A stretch of 26,906 nt of DNA from a virus: the IMG/VR virus record IMGVR_UViG_3300035157_000407, positions 1 through 26,906 of that record; one strand, written 5' to 3'. The translations under genes were made by a program, and so were the position numbers. A model generated the notes under the pieces. It ran no database searches. It saw only the letters and a list, made by a program, of their open reading frames with translations, and was not told where the DNA came from. This document shows positions 5,675-26,906 of this stretch, in pieces. Numbering within the stretch: position 1 is the stretch's first letter; every line of letters begins with the position of its first letter.

Positions 5675-5800
5675 ATGTCTTTTTTAAATAAAATAAGTAA
5701 AAGAAATATTGAACTAATTAAAGCAAAGGTTGAAGCTGGAATGGCTACCGAAGCTGATAAAAAATTACTTCAAAAATATAATCAGAAAAATGCGAACTAA
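5675..5800 (+). CDS. Small basic hypothetical protein, 41 aa
   Basis: Two bases after the scaffold stop codon an ATG opens a 41-codon frame ending at a TAA that overlaps the start of hli by 11 bases. The product starts MSFLNKISKRNIELIKAKV and reads [20 protein letters not shown] at its end: basic, probably two short helices, without membrane segment. It fills what would otherwise be an unused gap, it begins right after the scaffold stop and it overlaps hli, so it looks like a real coupled gene rather than spacer. No family is recognised. It may be carried along with the photosynthesis cassette, but no functional link is visible. Confidence 0.55.
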   Translation: MSFLNKISKRNIELIKAKVEAGMATEADKKLLQKYNQKNAN

Positions 5801-5981
5801 AGATTTAGATACGTTATTAACTAACGAATACCCTTACGAACCACCTATACAGGTATTACCAAAACAAAAAATCATGACACCAGAAGCAGAAAGATTTAAT
5901 GGCTGGGCAGCAATGCTTGGCTTCGTAGCAGCACTAGGTGCCTACGTTACAACCGGTCAAATTATCCCGGGTGTATTTTAA
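5790..5981 (+). CDS. hli: High-light-inducible protein (Hli)
   Basis: The 63-residue product has a hydrophilic N terminus and one transmembrane helix with the chlorophyll-binding signature [14 protein letters not shown] (residues 32-45), followed by the phage/Prochlorococcus-type end TTGQIIPG. Hli proteins sit in the thylakoid membrane, bind chlorophyll and carotenoid and protect photosystems from excess excitation. Tryptophan replaces the arginine of the canonical ExxNGR motif, as is usual in this subgroup. The ATG at 5790 is chosen because a longer in-frame version from 5730 would lie inside the preceding 41-aa ORF. The stop overlaps the psbA start (TAATG), so Hli and D1 are probably produced together during infection. 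Confidence 0.93.
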
Positions 5982-7060
5982 TGGCTGCAATCTCACTACA
6001 AAGAGAAAGCAGTAGTAACTGGCAGAAGTTTTGCGAATGGGTCACAAGTACACAGAACCGTCTCTACGTGGGATGGTTTGGTGTCCTTATGATACCTTGC
6101 TTACTAGCAGCCACTACATGTTTTATACTCGCCTTTATCGCAGCACCGCCTGTTGATATAGATGGCATACGTGAACCAGTATCAGGTTCGTTGTTGTACG
6201 GAAACAACATTATTTCAGGAGCAGTAGTCCCTAGCTCCAACGCAATTGGATTGCACTTTTACCCGATCTGGGAAGCTGGCACTTTGGACGAGTGGTTATA
6301 TAACGGCGGACCATATCAGCTCATTATCTTCCACTTCTTAATAGGAGTACTTGCATATGCAGGAAGACAATGGGAACTCTCATACCGTTTAGGAATGAGA
6401 CCTTGGATCTTTGTAGCATACACAGCTCCAGTATCAGCAGCTTTAGCTGTTTTTTTAGTTTACCCTTTCGGACAGGGGAGTTTTAGTGATGGTATGCCTC
6501 TTGGTATCTCTGGTACTTTTAACTTTATGTTCGTATTCCAAGCAGAACATAATATACTCATGCACCCATTCCATATGGCTGGTGTTGCTGGGGTATTCGG
6601 TGGATCTCTTTTCTCTGCTATGCACGGAAGTTTGGTTACTTCCTCACTTATTGCAGAAACATCAGAGGAAGTCTCACAGAATTATGGTTACAAGTTTGGG
6701 CAAGATGAAGAGACATATAATATTGTCGCTGCACACGGGTACTTTGGGAGATTAATTTTTCAATATGCTTCTTTCAATAATTCTCGTTCTTTACATTTCT
6801 TTCTTGCTACTTTCCCAGTGGTTGGCATATGGCTTACCTCCATGGGAATCTGCACTATGGCTTTCAACCTTAACGGTTTTAACTTTAACCAATCAATAGT
6901 TGATAGCAATGGAAAAGTAGTTCCTACTTGGGCGGATGTAGTTAACAGAGCTAACCTCGGATTTGAAGTTATGCACGAGCGTAACGCTCACAACTTCCCA
7001 CTTGATTTGGCTTCGGCTGAGTCAACACAAGTTGCACTATCAGCACCCTCAATAGGATAA
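5981..7060 (+). CDS. psbA: Photosystem II reaction-centre protein D1
   Basis: Full-length D1 of 359 residues. All key residues are in place: Y161 (redox tyrosine YZ), H190 beside it, H198 (P680 ligand), H215 and H272 (non-haem iron), S264 in the QB pocket, and D170, E189, H332, E333, H337, D342 and A344 of the oxygen-evolving cluster. Cleavage after A344 would remove a 15-residue tail ending SAPSIG. Residue 130 is glutamine, as in the D1:1 type rather than the high-light E130 type. The protein replaces fast-turning-over host D1 in the thylakoid so that photosynthesis continues during infection. It is coupled to hli upstream and to a 42-aa ORF downstream by TAATG overlaps. No intron or interruption is present. 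Confidence 0.98.
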
Positions 7061-23125: not shown

Positions 23126-24013
23126 ATGGCAATTACTAGCTCAGGAGAAATAAAATATTCTGATATACAAACTGAATTTGGTGGAAGCAATCCTATTGCT
23201 ATTTCTGAGTATTACTATAATGCTTCTGGTTATATAACTAACAGTGCATTTCCTGCAAGCGGTGAATATAAATTATCTAGATTTTATGGTGCTGCTAATG
23301 TAACAGAAGAAACTATAAGTTCTACTACAACAGATCTTGTTCTTGCAACACTTTTTGGAACCAATTGGGCAGCAAACGGACCTAAAATTTTAACTATAGA
23401 TAGTGGTGTAACGATTGGAGCCACAGTAGGCAATCCAGCTATACTTGTTTCTTCTGGCATGGGTGGAACATTAGTCATTAATAATGCTGGAACTATTACT
23501 GGGCATGGAGGTACTTCTGGTGCTGCTAGTGGTAATGGAAGTGTTTGTAGCCCGGGTAGACCCGGAGGTGACGGAGGTGACGGAGGGCACGGCATTTCAG
23601 TTGCATCTACTGGAGTTACTGTAAACAACACTGGCACAATATCTGGTGGCGGTGGCGGCGGTGGCGGCGGTGGTGCTGGCGAAAGAGGTAGAAGACAAAT
23701 ATTCAACACTTGGTACACGCCTTCTGGTAAACCCGGAACTGCTGGAGGTTTAGGTGCTGGTTACAACCAAGCTGCTACCACTGCATCAACTCCACAAACT
23801 GGATCCTATTCTGGTTCTGGTGGTAGAGGTGGAGCTGGTGGAGCTTTAGGTACTGCCGGGGCTGATGGTAATAATGGCGGTGGCACAAGTACAGCAAGTT
23901 GTTCAGTCGGACTAGGCGGTGACGGTGGTGCAGCCGGTGCTGCTATTTCAAACGGTGGAGCTAGTTGGACAAACGGCACTACTACCGGAACCTATCACGG
24001 TGCATATACATAG
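23126..24013 (+). CDS. Glycine-rich adhesin-like virion protein
   Basis: This 295-residue protein starts MAITSSGEIKYSDIQTEFGG, then PIAISEYYY, a module common at the N terminus of marine phage structural proteins. After a beta-rich part (TIDSGVTIGATVGNPAILV, TLVINNAGTITG) it becomes glycine-rich, with GGDGGDGGHG, ten consecutive glycines at 23645-23674 and several further Gly-rich blocks, interspersed with VNNTGTISGG. This recalls the polyglycine-sandwich receptor-binding adhesins of T-even phages (gp38 type), where short variable loops between glycine stretches choose the receptor; homology is not shown. The gene begins directly after the S74 gene. A long antisense frame here is a by-product of the glycine codons. 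Confidence 0.75.
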   Translation: MAITSSGEIKYSDIQTEFGGSNPIAISEYYYNASGYITNSAFPASGEYKLSRFYGAANVTEETISSTTTDLVLATLFGTNWAANGPKILTIDSGVTIGATVGNPAILVSSGMGGTLVINNAGTITGHGGTSGAASGNGSVCSPGRPGGDGGDGGHGISVASTGVTVNNTGTISGGGGGGGGGGAGERGRRQIFNTWYTPSGKPGTAGGLGAGYNQAATTASTPQTGSYSGSGGRGGAGGALGTAGADGNNGGGTSTASCSVGLGGDGGAAGAAISNGGASWTNGTTTGTYHGAYT

Positions 24014-25027: not shown

Positions 25028-25758
25028 GTAGTAAAATTGTAGTAGACGCAATAAAATCAAACTCTGCGACTACTGATGCTATTACTTTAGATAGTAGTGG
25101 CACCGGTGTTTACAAAGCAACTTCTGTAGAAACACCGAATATAAAACACGCTAGTTCATCTAGTAATAATATTGTTTTAGCTTCTGATGGTTCAGTAAGT
25201 ATTCCAAGCCTTACATTACCAGCTAAAACTTCTGGAGAAACAATAGAAAAAATTGTTGGAGTTTGTGACGGTAGAACTGTTACAGGTAAATCAGGTAGTT
25301 ATACATTAGAAAACGTAACTGCAAAATATGAACCTGATACTACATATTCAGACCTAACGGGTTCTTCAATTTCATACACGCCACCTACAGGAACAAAAAC
25401 TGTAATTTATAAGTTTCATGCATGCCAAAACAGAGATGGTGCTGGTCAAACTTTGTGGCATGCAAAATTTATGATAGATGGTGTTGAAGCTTCAAAATAT
25501 AGGTTTAGTAGATACAGTTATTATGGATCTCCCGGTTATATAGACTTTAAGTACGTCATTGACTGTAATGCAAGTGCTACTGATGCAAGTGCTGACTATG
25601 CTAGATTTACATCATGGACAAGTGCTAAAACTCTTAAAATTCAAGTTAGAACATACGATGGTAGTAATATAGCGGAATTTCATGATACAAGGTATTGGGA
25701 TGGAGCTACGGCAAGTCACTTAGTGCTACCAAATTTAGAAATTGAAGCACTAGCTTAA
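25024..25758 (+). CDS. Second fibre-like virion protein
   Basis: A 244-residue protein starting SSKIVVDAIKSNSATTDAITLDSSGTG, a fibre-type N-terminal module with short beta repeats (SSSNNIVLASDGSVSIPSLTLP), followed from about residue 75 by a beta-sandwich-like domain (SYTPPTGTKTVIYKFHACQ, LWHAKFMIDGVEASKYRFSRYSYYG, HDTRYWDGATASHLVLPNLEIEALA). It shows the same two-part design as the protein at 24024, so both may be small alternative receptor-binding or decorating proteins. It is translated with the preceding gene (ATGA) and the following one (TAATG). Function beyond a virion role is not shown. Confidence 0.7.
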   Translation: MSSKIVVDAIKSNSATTDAITLDSSGTGVYKATSVETPNIKHASSSSNNIVLASDGSVSIPSLTLPAKTSGETIEKIVGVCDGRTVTGKSGSYTLENVTAKYEPDTTYSDLTGSSISYTPPTGTKTVIYKFHACQNRDGAGQTLWHAKFMIDGVEASKYRFSRYSYYGSPGYIDFKYVIDCNASATDASADYARFTSWTSAKTLKIQVRTYDGSNIAEFHDTRYWDGATASHLVLPNLEIEALA

Positions 25759-26138
25759 TGGACTTACCAACTTTAGTACTACCTAAAGCCCCAAAATTAG
25801 AAAGAATGACATTGACCATTCCAACGGCTGATGTCCCTTATTACAAACCAATGGTGGTTCCTCCCAGTGATTTAAGACCACCTAATGGTGTTAAAGCTGA
25901 TACTAAAGAAGAAGCACCTACCGGTATTAGACAAGTAAAGATACCAATCATAGATAGACAAGTACCTTTACCAGAAAACGAAATATTAATTACTGCTAGT
26001 ACAACAGCAGTAGTTTCTGTAGCAGCCACCCTTACAGCTACAGCAGCATTTAAGTGGGTAGTTACTGCACTTAAACCAATATTGAAAACAACATGGAAGA
26101 AATTAAGCCAATCAAAGGGCAACCAAAAAGTTTCCTAA
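25758..26138 (+). CDS. Proline-rich protein with one membrane segment
   Basis: The 126-residue protein opens with a proline-rich region (DLPTLVLPKAPKLERMTLTIP, then YYKPMVVPPSDLRPP) and a central IDRQVPLPENEILI, followed by a hydrophobic Ala/Thr/Val stretch at about 77-101 (TTAVVSVAATLTATAAF) and a basic tail (KPILKTTWKKLSQSKGNQK). One transmembrane helix with the basic end inside is likely. I recall closely similar proteins in T4-like cyanophages at a comparable spot near structural genes, but no function is established. It is joined to the previous gene by TAATG and overlaps the following gene by 46 bases. A virion or membrane-acting lysis-related role is possible. Confidence 0.65.
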   Translation: MDLPTLVLPKAPKLERMTLTIPTADVPYYKPMVVPPSDLRPPNGVKADTKEEAPTGIRQVKIPIIDRQVPLPENEILITASTTAVVSVAATLTATAAFKWVVTALKPILKTTWKKLSQSKGNQKVS

Positions 26139-26404
26139 AAAAGCTCAAAGAAAACGTAGACGATCATGAAGAACAGATGGCGATACTTGGTGCAGCAGTG
26201 CGCCTTGGTGTTGTTATTTGGAGTGGCTTCATAATTACACTAAGTTATGTTGAGCTGCCAATGATTAAAAAGTCAGCTACAGCAGGCGATATCACGTTCG
26301 TGGCTTCGATTTTTACGGGTGCGCTCGCAACTTTCGGACTGTCTACGGGCAATGGTAAGAAGAATGGAAACGGTAACGGAACAACAACAAAACCAAAAAC
26401 ATGA
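26093..26404 (+). CDS. Two-helix membrane protein, holin candidate
   Basis: The 103-residue protein has a charged N terminus (KGQPKSFLKKLKENVDDHEEQ), two hydrophobic segments near residues 33-53 (AAVRLGVVIWSGFIITLSYV) and 66-85 (ITFVASIFTGALATFGLS), and a hydrophilic tail rich in Gly, Asn and Lys. Size, two helices and charged ends fit a class II holin, which would let the endolysin reach the wall, and T7 also has its holin (gp17.5) after the tail fibre gene. However no endolysin, spanin or terminase gene is visible next to it, and similar small membrane proteins are known in cyanophages without assigned role. It ends in an ATGA overlap with a secreted-protein gene. Confidence 0.6.
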   Translation: MEEIKPIKGQPKSFLKKLKENVDDHEEQMAILGAAVRLGVVIWSGFIITLSYVELPMIKKSATAGDITFVASIFTGALATFGLSTGNGKKNGNGNGTTTKPKT

Positions 26405-26757
26405 AGAAATGGATTCTTCTCTTAGCTCTGTTATCACCCAGCATAGCGAGAGCAAACACAATTACTCCTCAGTTCACACAAGGGAGTATGAACAGTACGA
26501 CAACAACAACTCAGACAATTCAGGAGACAATAAACCAAGAAGTCTTTGGAGCCGAGGTAAAAACTTGGTCTGGAACAAATGTAACAGCTTCAGGAGATAT
26601 TGCAGATCCGGCAACAACCTTCAGCTTAACAACTCCCGGAGCAGACTTTCAGTTAGAGATAACAGAAAGAGCAGCAGGACTAATCGAGACAATCGACACA
26701 GTTCGCACTATAGATACAGACTCTACTACTACTTCTTACTCAGTCTTCTCACAATAA
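26401..26757 (+). CDS. Small secreted protein with signal peptide
   Basis: The 118-residue product begins with a clear Sec signal peptide (MKKWILLLALLSPSIARA, cleavage before NTITPQ). The mature part is Thr- and Ser-rich: TQGSMNSTTTTTQTIQETI, then VKTWSGTNVTASGDIADP, ATTFSLTTPGADFQLEITERA and a C terminus ending TTSYSVFSQ, with no cysteines and no lipobox. It would be exported to the periplasm or released. Proteins with this ANTITPQFT start are, from memory, widespread in marine cyanophages and of unknown function. The start overlaps the holin candidate stop by ATGA. Nearly its full length is also open in another frame (see next entry). Confidence 0.7.
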   Translation: MKKWILLLALLSPSIARANTITPQFTQGSMNSTTTTTQTIQETINQEVFGAEVKTWSGTNVTASGDIADPATTFSLTTPGADFQLEITERAAGLIETIDTVRTIDTDSTTTSYSVFSQ

Positions 26758-26906
26758 GTCCAGCATACGCTGATACAGATCCAGAAAATAATAATGTAAG
26801 TAACCCAGTCGCCGCAGCTACTGGAAATGTGACCAATCAGGCAGTGCAATTTCAGAACAATGGAGCACCGTCTAGACAACAATATGGTCCAAACATAAGC
26901 TGCAAC
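26409..26906 (+). CDS. Partial protein with internal export-type segment, overlapping the secreted-protein gene
   Basis: A frame open from ATG 26409 to the window end (166 codons, no stop) lies almost entirely across the secreted-protein gene. Its first part is Asn/Ser/Arg-rich (for example EYEQYDNNNSDNSG and NRKSSRTNRDNR), as expected for a shifted reading of Thr-rich codons, so that part may not be translated. From about 26723 it turns into a convincing export segment, YYYFLLSLLTISPAYA, followed by DTDPENNNVSNPV and NVTNQAVQFQNNGAP, then SRQQYGPNISCN at the edge. The latter resembles a conserved cyanophage protein that I recall next to the secreted-protein gene. No ATG or GTG lies between 26409 and the hydrophobic segment, so the true start is unclear. 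Confidence 0.6.
   Translation, partial: MDSSLSSVITQHSESKHNYSSVHTREYEQYDNNNSDNSGDNKPRSLWSRGKNLVWNKCNSFRRYCRSGNNLQLNNSRSRLSVRDNRKSSRTNRDNRHSSHYRYRLYYYFLLSLLTISPAYADTDPENNNVSNPVAAATGNVTNQAVQFQNNGAPSRQQYGPNISCN

Follow-up and report, generated by a model that had tools for sequence, protein, structure and literature searches.

How the common cyanophages of the ocean burst Prochlorococcus and Synechococcus is unsettled. Here we describe a four-gene candidate that makes this question directly testable. The four genes, g1 to g4, lie in the last part (25758-26906) of a viral contig, IMG/VR record IMGVR_UViG_3300035157_000407, of which we analysed the whole stretch of 26,906 nucleotides (nt), hereafter the window. 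The initial annotation, made from the letters of the DNA, had proposed that they form a unit of envelope-directed proteins that is shared with T4-like cyanophages and could be a lysis, exclusion or virion surface system that has not been described. We put the probability at about one half that they are a lysis module for the cyanobacterial envelope, which T7-like and T4-like cyanophages have in common and which resembles no known holin-endolysin-spanin cassette in sequence. This reading is the most economical because it would account for a slot shared with endolysin cassettes, a position in the late region, a distribution nearly complementary to that of endolysins, a two-helix protein and the predicted export of the other products to the periplasm.

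All four overlapping frames were found at the place and on the strand given by the initial annotation. The window is part of a T7-like cyanopodovirus, and its closest annotated relatives over the module region are P-GSP1 (75% DNA identity, 91% of the query covered) and P-SSP7, in which genes 42-45 have the same order and are annotated as one-helix, two-helix, possible signal-peptide and hypothetical proteins. Given the phage relatives of g2, g3 and g4 found in database searches, the frames are not chance. Each gene does overlap the next, by 46 nt (g1/g2), 4 nt (g2/g3) and at least 193 nt (g3/g4), with the correction that the window offers g4 no ordinary start close to its signal peptide and that the N-terminal frame of g4 lies mostly inside g3.

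We compared the gene order around the module with that of T7-like cyanophages that lack it. In P-SSP7, the fibre gene is followed by five small genes, g1-g4, one small gene and gene 47, which matches the terminase small subunit. P60, which is T7-like and has no module, carries between the same two landmarks gp36, the endolysin gp37 and two small genes, and S-CBP42 has the layout of P60. The endolysin belongs to the lysis family phrog_181 (E = 2.8e-31), gp36 is endonuclease-like at a score below the Pfam cut-off, and the two small genes show hydrophobic stretches by eye, with a very weak Rz-like match for gp38 (E = 0.03). Among 54 contigs with an S-CBP42-type endolysin, 17 (P60, S-CBP42 and 15 others, some of them near-identical) also hold the terminase small subunit, 199-833 nt downstream of the endolysin, and g2, g3 and the core of g4 were each absent from all 17. 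Conversely, the terminase small subunit was present in 168 of the 169 T7-like module loci with more than 1200 nt downstream (median distance 416 nt over 221 loci), and no S-CBP42-type endolysin was found within the few kilobases (kb) covered at 240 T7-like and 80 T4-like module loci. Judged by gene order, the T7-like module sits in the slot where other T7-like cyanophages carry an endolysin. The P60/S-CBP42 cassette has a recognisable endolysin and, at the threshold applied in tblastn, nothing in common with the module in sequence. In T7-like phages the position after the fibre gene is late region, and T7 has holin and spanin genes near the corresponding position. Both this replacement and the nested start of g4 described below go beyond what the initial annotation had read.

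The distribution of endolysins was assessed in named phages. Across 16 records, phrog_181 was found only in P60, S-CBP42, S-CREM2, S-N03 and S-B68. For the lysozyme family PF00959, S-PM2 has a matching frame of 169 residues, and the matches in S-SM1, S-CREM2, S-B68 and S-N03 are to frames of 641-1456 residues, which are probably tail or baseplate proteins. Relatives of the S-PM2 lysozyme were detected by tblastn in ACG-2014f, inside a 405-residue gene, and in S-CAM7, where the gene is annotated as a lysin. Neither phrog_181 nor a short PF00959 frame was found in the nine g3/g4 carriers P-SSP7, P-RSP2, P-GSP1, S-RIP2, S-SM1, P-SSM4, S-SSM7, Syn9 and S-TIM5, whereas eight of nine records without g3 have a dedicated endolysin (P60, S-CBP42, S-CREM2, S-N03, S-B68, S-PM2, ACG-2014f and S-CAM7). 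With related phages treated as independent, the difference between 0/9 and 8/9 corresponds to a Fisher P of 0.0004. ACG-2014f lacks both g3 and g4, and S-CAM7 lacks g3 and has a weak g4 match. S-PM2, the cyanomyovirus reported without the T4-like cassette, has a hydrolase cluster at ~115.2-117.8 kb (L378:415-3015) that comprises an endonuclease-like gene, a C39 peptidase, the PF00959 lysozyme and, on the opposite strand, a gene for a small membrane protein, as well as an RlpA-like gene, which is the only DPBB/RlpA match obtained. This cluster would count in favour of a lysis module.

The statement in the initial annotation that the same kind of set occurs in T4-like cyanomyoviruses proved correct, as relatives of all four proteins were found there (T4-GCs 234, 218, 236 and 235 for g1 to g4). 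g3 and the S-SM1 T4-GC236 protein both fall in phrog_650 (E = 8e-36 and 8e-59), and g4 and the S-SM1 T4-GC235 protein in phrog_848 (E = 6e-21 and 5e-130). For g1 and T4-GC234, hhalign gave a probability of 97.2 (E = 3.3e-11, 63 columns), confined to the C-terminal helix region. Counted with GenBank/RefSeq duplicates included, relatives of g2 occur in 428 phage records by tblastn (the first words of the names are all cyanophage or 'marine'), those of g3 in 33, and those of the S-SM1 T4-GC235 protein in 443 by tblastn, with podoviruses among the matches listed (P-GSP1, E = 4e-13). Within the DNA covered at each locus, a T4-GC218 match is present in 227 of 237 T7-like loci and in all 203 that have more than 700 nt upstream of g3. 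In 62 T4-like loci, T4-GC234 was found 60 times, T4-GC237 58 times and T4-GC218 54 times; T4-GCs 219, 237 and 414 gave no tblastn match in the 237 T7-like loci, within a few kb of flank. When eight records were checked for the g2, g3 and g4 families, all three were present in five (Syn9, S-TIM5, P-SSP7, S-SM1 and P-RSP2) and none in S-PM2, P60 and P-SS2. In S-TIM5, a record not placed in Kyanoviridae, g2 is distant from the g3/g4 pair.

At the level of protein matches, the cross-family link is therefore confirmed, with the T4-like side partly known beforehand. The initial annotation would have been abandoned had the genes not co-occurred across families or had unrelated functions been assigned to them; instead the set recurs in T4-like phages. 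As a unit kept together, it holds in co-occurrence but not in gene order, since the T7-like set is collinear and in T4-like loci (S-SM1 and several contigs) g3-g4 face g1 and g2. The T4-like cassette, which includes a 'plasmid stability protein' (T4-GC414), is like the T7-like set in the frame relation of g3 and g4 and in the nested start. In their passages on this cassette, Sullivan et al. (2010; PMC3037559) treat T4-GCs 218, 219, 234, 235 and 237 as one cluster that shows signs of mobility and is found in 15 of 16 cyanomyoviruses with S-PM2 as the exception; these passages assign no function and mention no nested start. Thus, most of the T4-like cluster was already in print as possibly mobile, and the suggestion of an undescribed system is incomplete in this respect. 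In the open-access literature (subscription papers, supplements and preprints lay outside this scope) we found no lysis role for the set and no paper on DUF6450, DUF6322 or the PHROG names of the module, and its genes go unnamed in the relevant passages of Thompson et al. 2016. T4-GC414 and T4-GC219, considered as g3 and g4 counterparts from the gene order after T4-GC218, were ruled out at the protein level in favour of T4-GC236 and T4-GC235.

A scan of genome contigs returned only 18 loci, in cyanobacterial single-cell assemblies and in metagenome-assembled genomes and assemblies of several phyla. By overall appearance, rather than contig by contig, these look like phage contigs and not host genes. 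The g4 relatives in unrelated bacteria, such as that on a 188,235-base Nonlabens xiamenensis contig (L452, NZ_RMVE01000006.1), resemble co-binned or co-assembled cyanophage contigs. In S-SSM7, a second weak match to the g3 family (E = 9.6e-6; L463/L464, 181690-182166 and 182400-182615) lies upstream of g3 inside the gene annotated as T4-GC237, which suggests duplication of an exported gene in T4-like phages.

To characterize the relation between g3 and g4, we gathered their pairs from four viral-contig scans, the named phages and the window, 318 in all. The set excludes P-RSP2, which has no match to the motif used, and 17 loci in which g3 has a different terminus (eight of these 17 were inspected, and the g4 frame of each contains a start codon). 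Relative to g3, g4 is in the -1 frame in 318/318 pairs, and its hydrophobic stretch spans the g3 stop codon in the loci inspected. Inside g3 and upstream of the signal peptide, the g4 frame usually hits a stop, and an ATG, GTG or TTG always lies between the two. Excluding 19 pairs without a resolvable g3 start and counting identical g3 sequences once, a start after the last in-frame stop is present in 218/218 distinct T7-like and 48/48 distinct T4-like g3 sequences. The expectation is 11.3% and 14.3%, respectively, from 200 shuffles of synonymous codons within each g3, a procedure that does not fully control for codon pairs and relatedness. After clustering by shared 9-mers, the start is found in 62/62 T7-like and 18/18 T4-like clusters (80/80 together; 7.4 and 2.6 expected), compared to 4/80 clusters for the third reading frame, used as a control. 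These statistics suggest that g4 is translated from within g3, and they leave unfixed which start is used.

The positions of these starts are discrete: counted back from the g3 stop, they lie mainly at 21, 36, 63 or 68 codons in T7-like phages and at 45 or 54-58 codons in T4-like ones. In 67 of the 218 distinct T7-like sequences (1.2 expected) and 15 of the 62 clusters (0.2 expected), the g4 frame is open through the whole of g3, which occurs in no T4-like sequence; of the 72 fully open T7-like loci, 70 have a second ATG that follows the ATG of g3 by 8 nt. The frame is likewise open in the window, where the candidate g4 starts are ATG 26409, at this distance of 8 nt, and TTG 26565. A start of g4 inside g3 thus appears well supported from these comparisons and is new here, and it makes g3/g4 a further nested gene pair, widely conserved and with start sites that are discrete and shifting. 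The annotated g4 start lies beyond the signal peptide in at least six genomes (P-SSP7, gene 45; P-SSP2; NATL2A-133; S-RIP2; S-RIP1; S-TIP37), so correction of the start matters for any experiment. We suspected at first that programmed -1 frameshifting yields a single g3-g4 fusion protein, which would suit both the constant frame and the missing ordinary start near the signal peptide in the window. However, most loci have in-frame stops upstream of g4 and always a start after them, and in S-CAM7 the divergent g4-like exported protein has a gene to itself, complete with start and signal peptide. We dropped the fusion after the start-codon survey and the shuffles and now consider it highly improbable.

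Some minor observations concern g4. The C-terminal ~50 residues of the annotated P-GSP1 g4 (L003:4831-5547) match a family of their own, phrog_2738, and may stem from a distinct small gene. Two endolysin-type contigs (L391:7284-7439 and L396:5448-5654) have similar sequence upstream of the terminase small subunit; these g4 matches were set aside, as they involve only residues 172-236 of the annotated P-GSP1 protein. In S-CAM7, the g4-like protein (L462, match at 31560-31802) adjoins a second exported protein that ends in TESSTFSR.

We next consider what the four proteins look like. By hydropathy, g1 has a single hydrophobic segment near its C-terminus (residues 76-94, nt 25983-26039), followed by a basic tail, an arrangement that would probably place the proline-rich N-terminal part in the periplasm. 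g2 has two such segments (residues 30-48, nt 26180-26236, and residues 67-85, nt 26291-26347), matches PF20048 DUF6450 (E = 2e-31, Pfam) and, being small with two membrane segments, has the size and helix content of a holin. g3 and g4 show signal peptides by eye, with cleavage at ARA|NT and AYA|DTD, and neither contains a 19-residue hydropathy window of 1.4 or more (maximum 1.28 and 0.87). Against PF19847 DUF6322, the g3 of the window remains under the Pfam cut-off (24.3 of 30.6 bits), and its S-SM1 relative is far above it; g3 ends in a conserved S[VI]FSQ. Four cysteines of g4 are invariant in 63 sequences (mature positions 44, 100, 123 and 143 only) and are therefore probably disulfide-bonded. 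T4-GC234 likewise has four cysteines, each conserved in at least 90% of 20 sequences, and cysteines conserved in both proteins would suit the periplasm. No match to a catalytic hydrolase domain was found for g1-g4 in Pfam, NCBIfam or PDB sequences (the last with the g1, g3 and g4 profiles, none of which gave a convincing match of any kind). PADLOC gave no match, and a defence-system identity was rejected.

The structure model of g3 is an extended beta-hairpin with strands of 23 and 24 very polar residues (mean predicted local distance difference test score, pLDDT, 84; predicted template modelling score, pTM, 0.38). Foldseek searches of the PDB with this monomer model returned phage tail proteins (Andhra, E = 1e-4; P68, 0.03; phi29, 0.05) and the stems of pore-forming toxins (lysenin, CDTb, iota-b, PA and aerolysin; E = 0.02-0.1), and VIA-align reached a Z of 4.3 at best. 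The likeness to beta-barrel toxin stems and phage tail barrels lies in the extended hairpin and may be only a common arrangement; the g3 strands are very polar, and g3 has no match among PDB sequences. A search of viral structures gave mostly cyanophage relatives from its own family and then weak mixed matches that include lower-collar proteins. Spanin and endolysin chains are absent from the VIA-align list for g3, an absence of little weight. The g4 model has low confidence (pLDDT 64.6) and its fold search was uninformative: TolC-family chains recur at E = 0.66-3.2, and VIA-align lists none of them (Z at most 2.5).

If the module acts in lysis, g2 would be the holin that permeabilises the inner membrane at lysis time, and g1 an inner-membrane protein with its C-terminus inside. 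g3 and g4, made from overlapping frames and exported by Sec, would meet in the periplasm, where the beta-hairpins of g3 could assemble at or in the outer membrane with g4 as partner. After holin triggering, the set would then disrupt the outer layers, which is the job of endolysin and spanins elsewhere. The nested exported pair is reminiscent of Rz/Rz1 of lambda and 18.5/18.7 of T7, in which the second exported gene likewise starts inside the first in another frame and, in T7, lies near the terminase genes; by this analogy, we count it for lysis. Unlike Rz/Rz1, however, g3 and g4 lack both a lipobox and an N-terminal membrane anchor and gave no sequence match, and g4 runs far beyond g3. In its passages on annotation and on phages without spanins, the survey of Kongari et al. 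(2018; PMC6139136) states that spanin gene starts are often mis-annotated and counts 91 spanin-less phages, of which 20 infect Prochlorococcus or Synechococcus, and it places the carriers P-SSP7, S-SM1, Syn9, P-SSM4 and S-SSM7 among the 91. We put forward only tentatively a bolder version, in which lysis is laterally shared by at least two distantly related lineages and depends neither on an endolysin, in the usual sense, nor on spanins, using a holin-like protein, a proline-rich inner-membrane tether, the nested pair and an oligomeric g3 in the outer membrane. If true, such a system would disrupt the outer membrane in a way that defines a new class, and it would supply many 'spanin-less' cyanophages with their missing route to lysis. 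Genetic engineering of T7-like cyanophages has been published (PMC8776855).

Several observations weigh against a lysis module. g2 falls in no holin sequence family, its matches being PF20048 DUF6450 and PHROGs without assigned function. The lipobox of an o-spanin is missing, as g3 has no conserved cysteine and the mature g4 of one locus (L050) begins ETDPE, and so is the N-terminal membrane helix of an i-spanin, as no segment of g3 or g4 exceeds 1.4 and the helix of g1 is C-terminal. The same passages of Kongari et al. (PMC6139136) also list the non-carriers P60, S-PM2 and P-SS2 and suggest that cyanobacterial outer membranes may simply be fragile; the list thus motivates the question without deciding it or singling out carriers. 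With regard to the distribution, only a few hydrolase families were searched (phrog_181, PF00959, C39 and DPBB/RlpA), six of the eight endolysin-bearing non-carriers entered the comparison on account of their endolysin, ahead of the test for g3, and the records are related to one another. P-SS2 has neither the module nor either endolysin family and does have a C39 peptidase, a family also matched in S-PM2, S-CREM2, S-N03 and S-B68 and, at a borderline level, in the carrier P-GSP1 (E = 2.7e-6). S-N03 and S-B68 keep a divergent DUF6450 without g3 or g4 (S-CREM2 is below the cut-off). No g4 was found in S-CBP42, S-CREM2, S-N03 and S-B68 by a search that gave no match at all, whereas the g3 search there had positive controls. 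One contig (L416, 3903-6705) holds g3, a nested g4, a convergent g1, a g2-like frame by eye and, 1 kb away, a P60-type endolysin, and was counted both for and against the lysis reading; S-CAM7 combines a lysozyme with its divergent, separately encoded g4-like protein. Since both hold module genes and an endolysin or lysozyme, the exclusion is not strict. These two cases would also suit a narrower form of the lysis reading, in which lysis is conventional, an unrecognised endolysin lies elsewhere and the module supplies only the holin and, in place of spanins, the outer-membrane part. This form would further draw on PSSP7_050, which has a weak match to an 'endolysin' PHROG (E = 9.8e-10). Yet this was the only PHROG match of its kind among the 10 of 58 annotated P-SSP7 proteins scanned per library, none of which has a Pfam cell-wall hydrolase domain, and P60 has a gene of similar size just before the large terminase (gp48, alike by size and position) as well as a separate endolysin. 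We regard the narrower form as unlikely.

The main rival, somewhat less unlikely than a hidden endolysin, is superinfection exclusion or envelope remodelling, in which the set would alter the periplasm or outer membrane against injection or adsorption by other phages, or relieve envelope stress of the host. It fits the export signals and the cyanophage-centred distribution (only 18 loci in the genome-contig scan) equally well. The signs of mobility described in the cluster passages of Sullivan et al. (PMC3037559) are as for accessory functions, and absence from the lytic phages S-PM2 and P60 implies that the module is dispensable in principle. Exclusion, however, leaves the endolysin-slot position and the near-complementary endolysin distribution unexplained. 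Virion or tail-associated surface proteins, the remaining function named in the initial annotation, would be in line with the likeness of the g3 model to long beta-hairpins of tail proteins and lower collars and with the position of the T7-like genes downstream of the fibre genes. But inspection by eye gives both g3 and g4 a Sec-type signal peptide, whereas the assembly of tailed virions is cytoplasmic, and pore-forming toxin stems score alike with the g3 model. Because of these export signals a virion-surface role is disfavoured and seems quite improbable. An envelope or lysis role is the best reading.

The features of the module region are collected in Table 1.

Table 1 Genes of the module and selected elements within g3 and g4, in window coordinates.
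Feature	Position	Strand	Description
g1	25758..26138	+	126 aa, proline-rich; phrog_9426; T4-GC234 relative
g2	26093..26404	+	103 aa, two-helix, holin-like; PF20048 DUF6450; T4-GC218 relative
g3	26401..26757	+	118 aa, predicted exported; phrog_650; T4-GC236 relative
g3 first long predicted strand	26482..26550	+	residues 28-50; structure model
g3 second long predicted strand	26677..26748	+	residues 93-116; structure model
g4	26409..26906	+	predicted exported, -1 frame of g3; 3' end lost at contig end; phrog_848; T4-GC235 relative
g4 signal-peptide h-region LYYYFLLSLLTISPAYA	26721..26771	+	by eye; spans g3 stop codon 26755-26757; predicted mature protein from 26772

Elsewhere in the window, a glycine-rich protein is encoded in the fibre region (23126-24013), and 5730-7060 holds a short gene and, after it, a psbA-like D1 gene identified by eye, as is usual for cyanopodoviruses.

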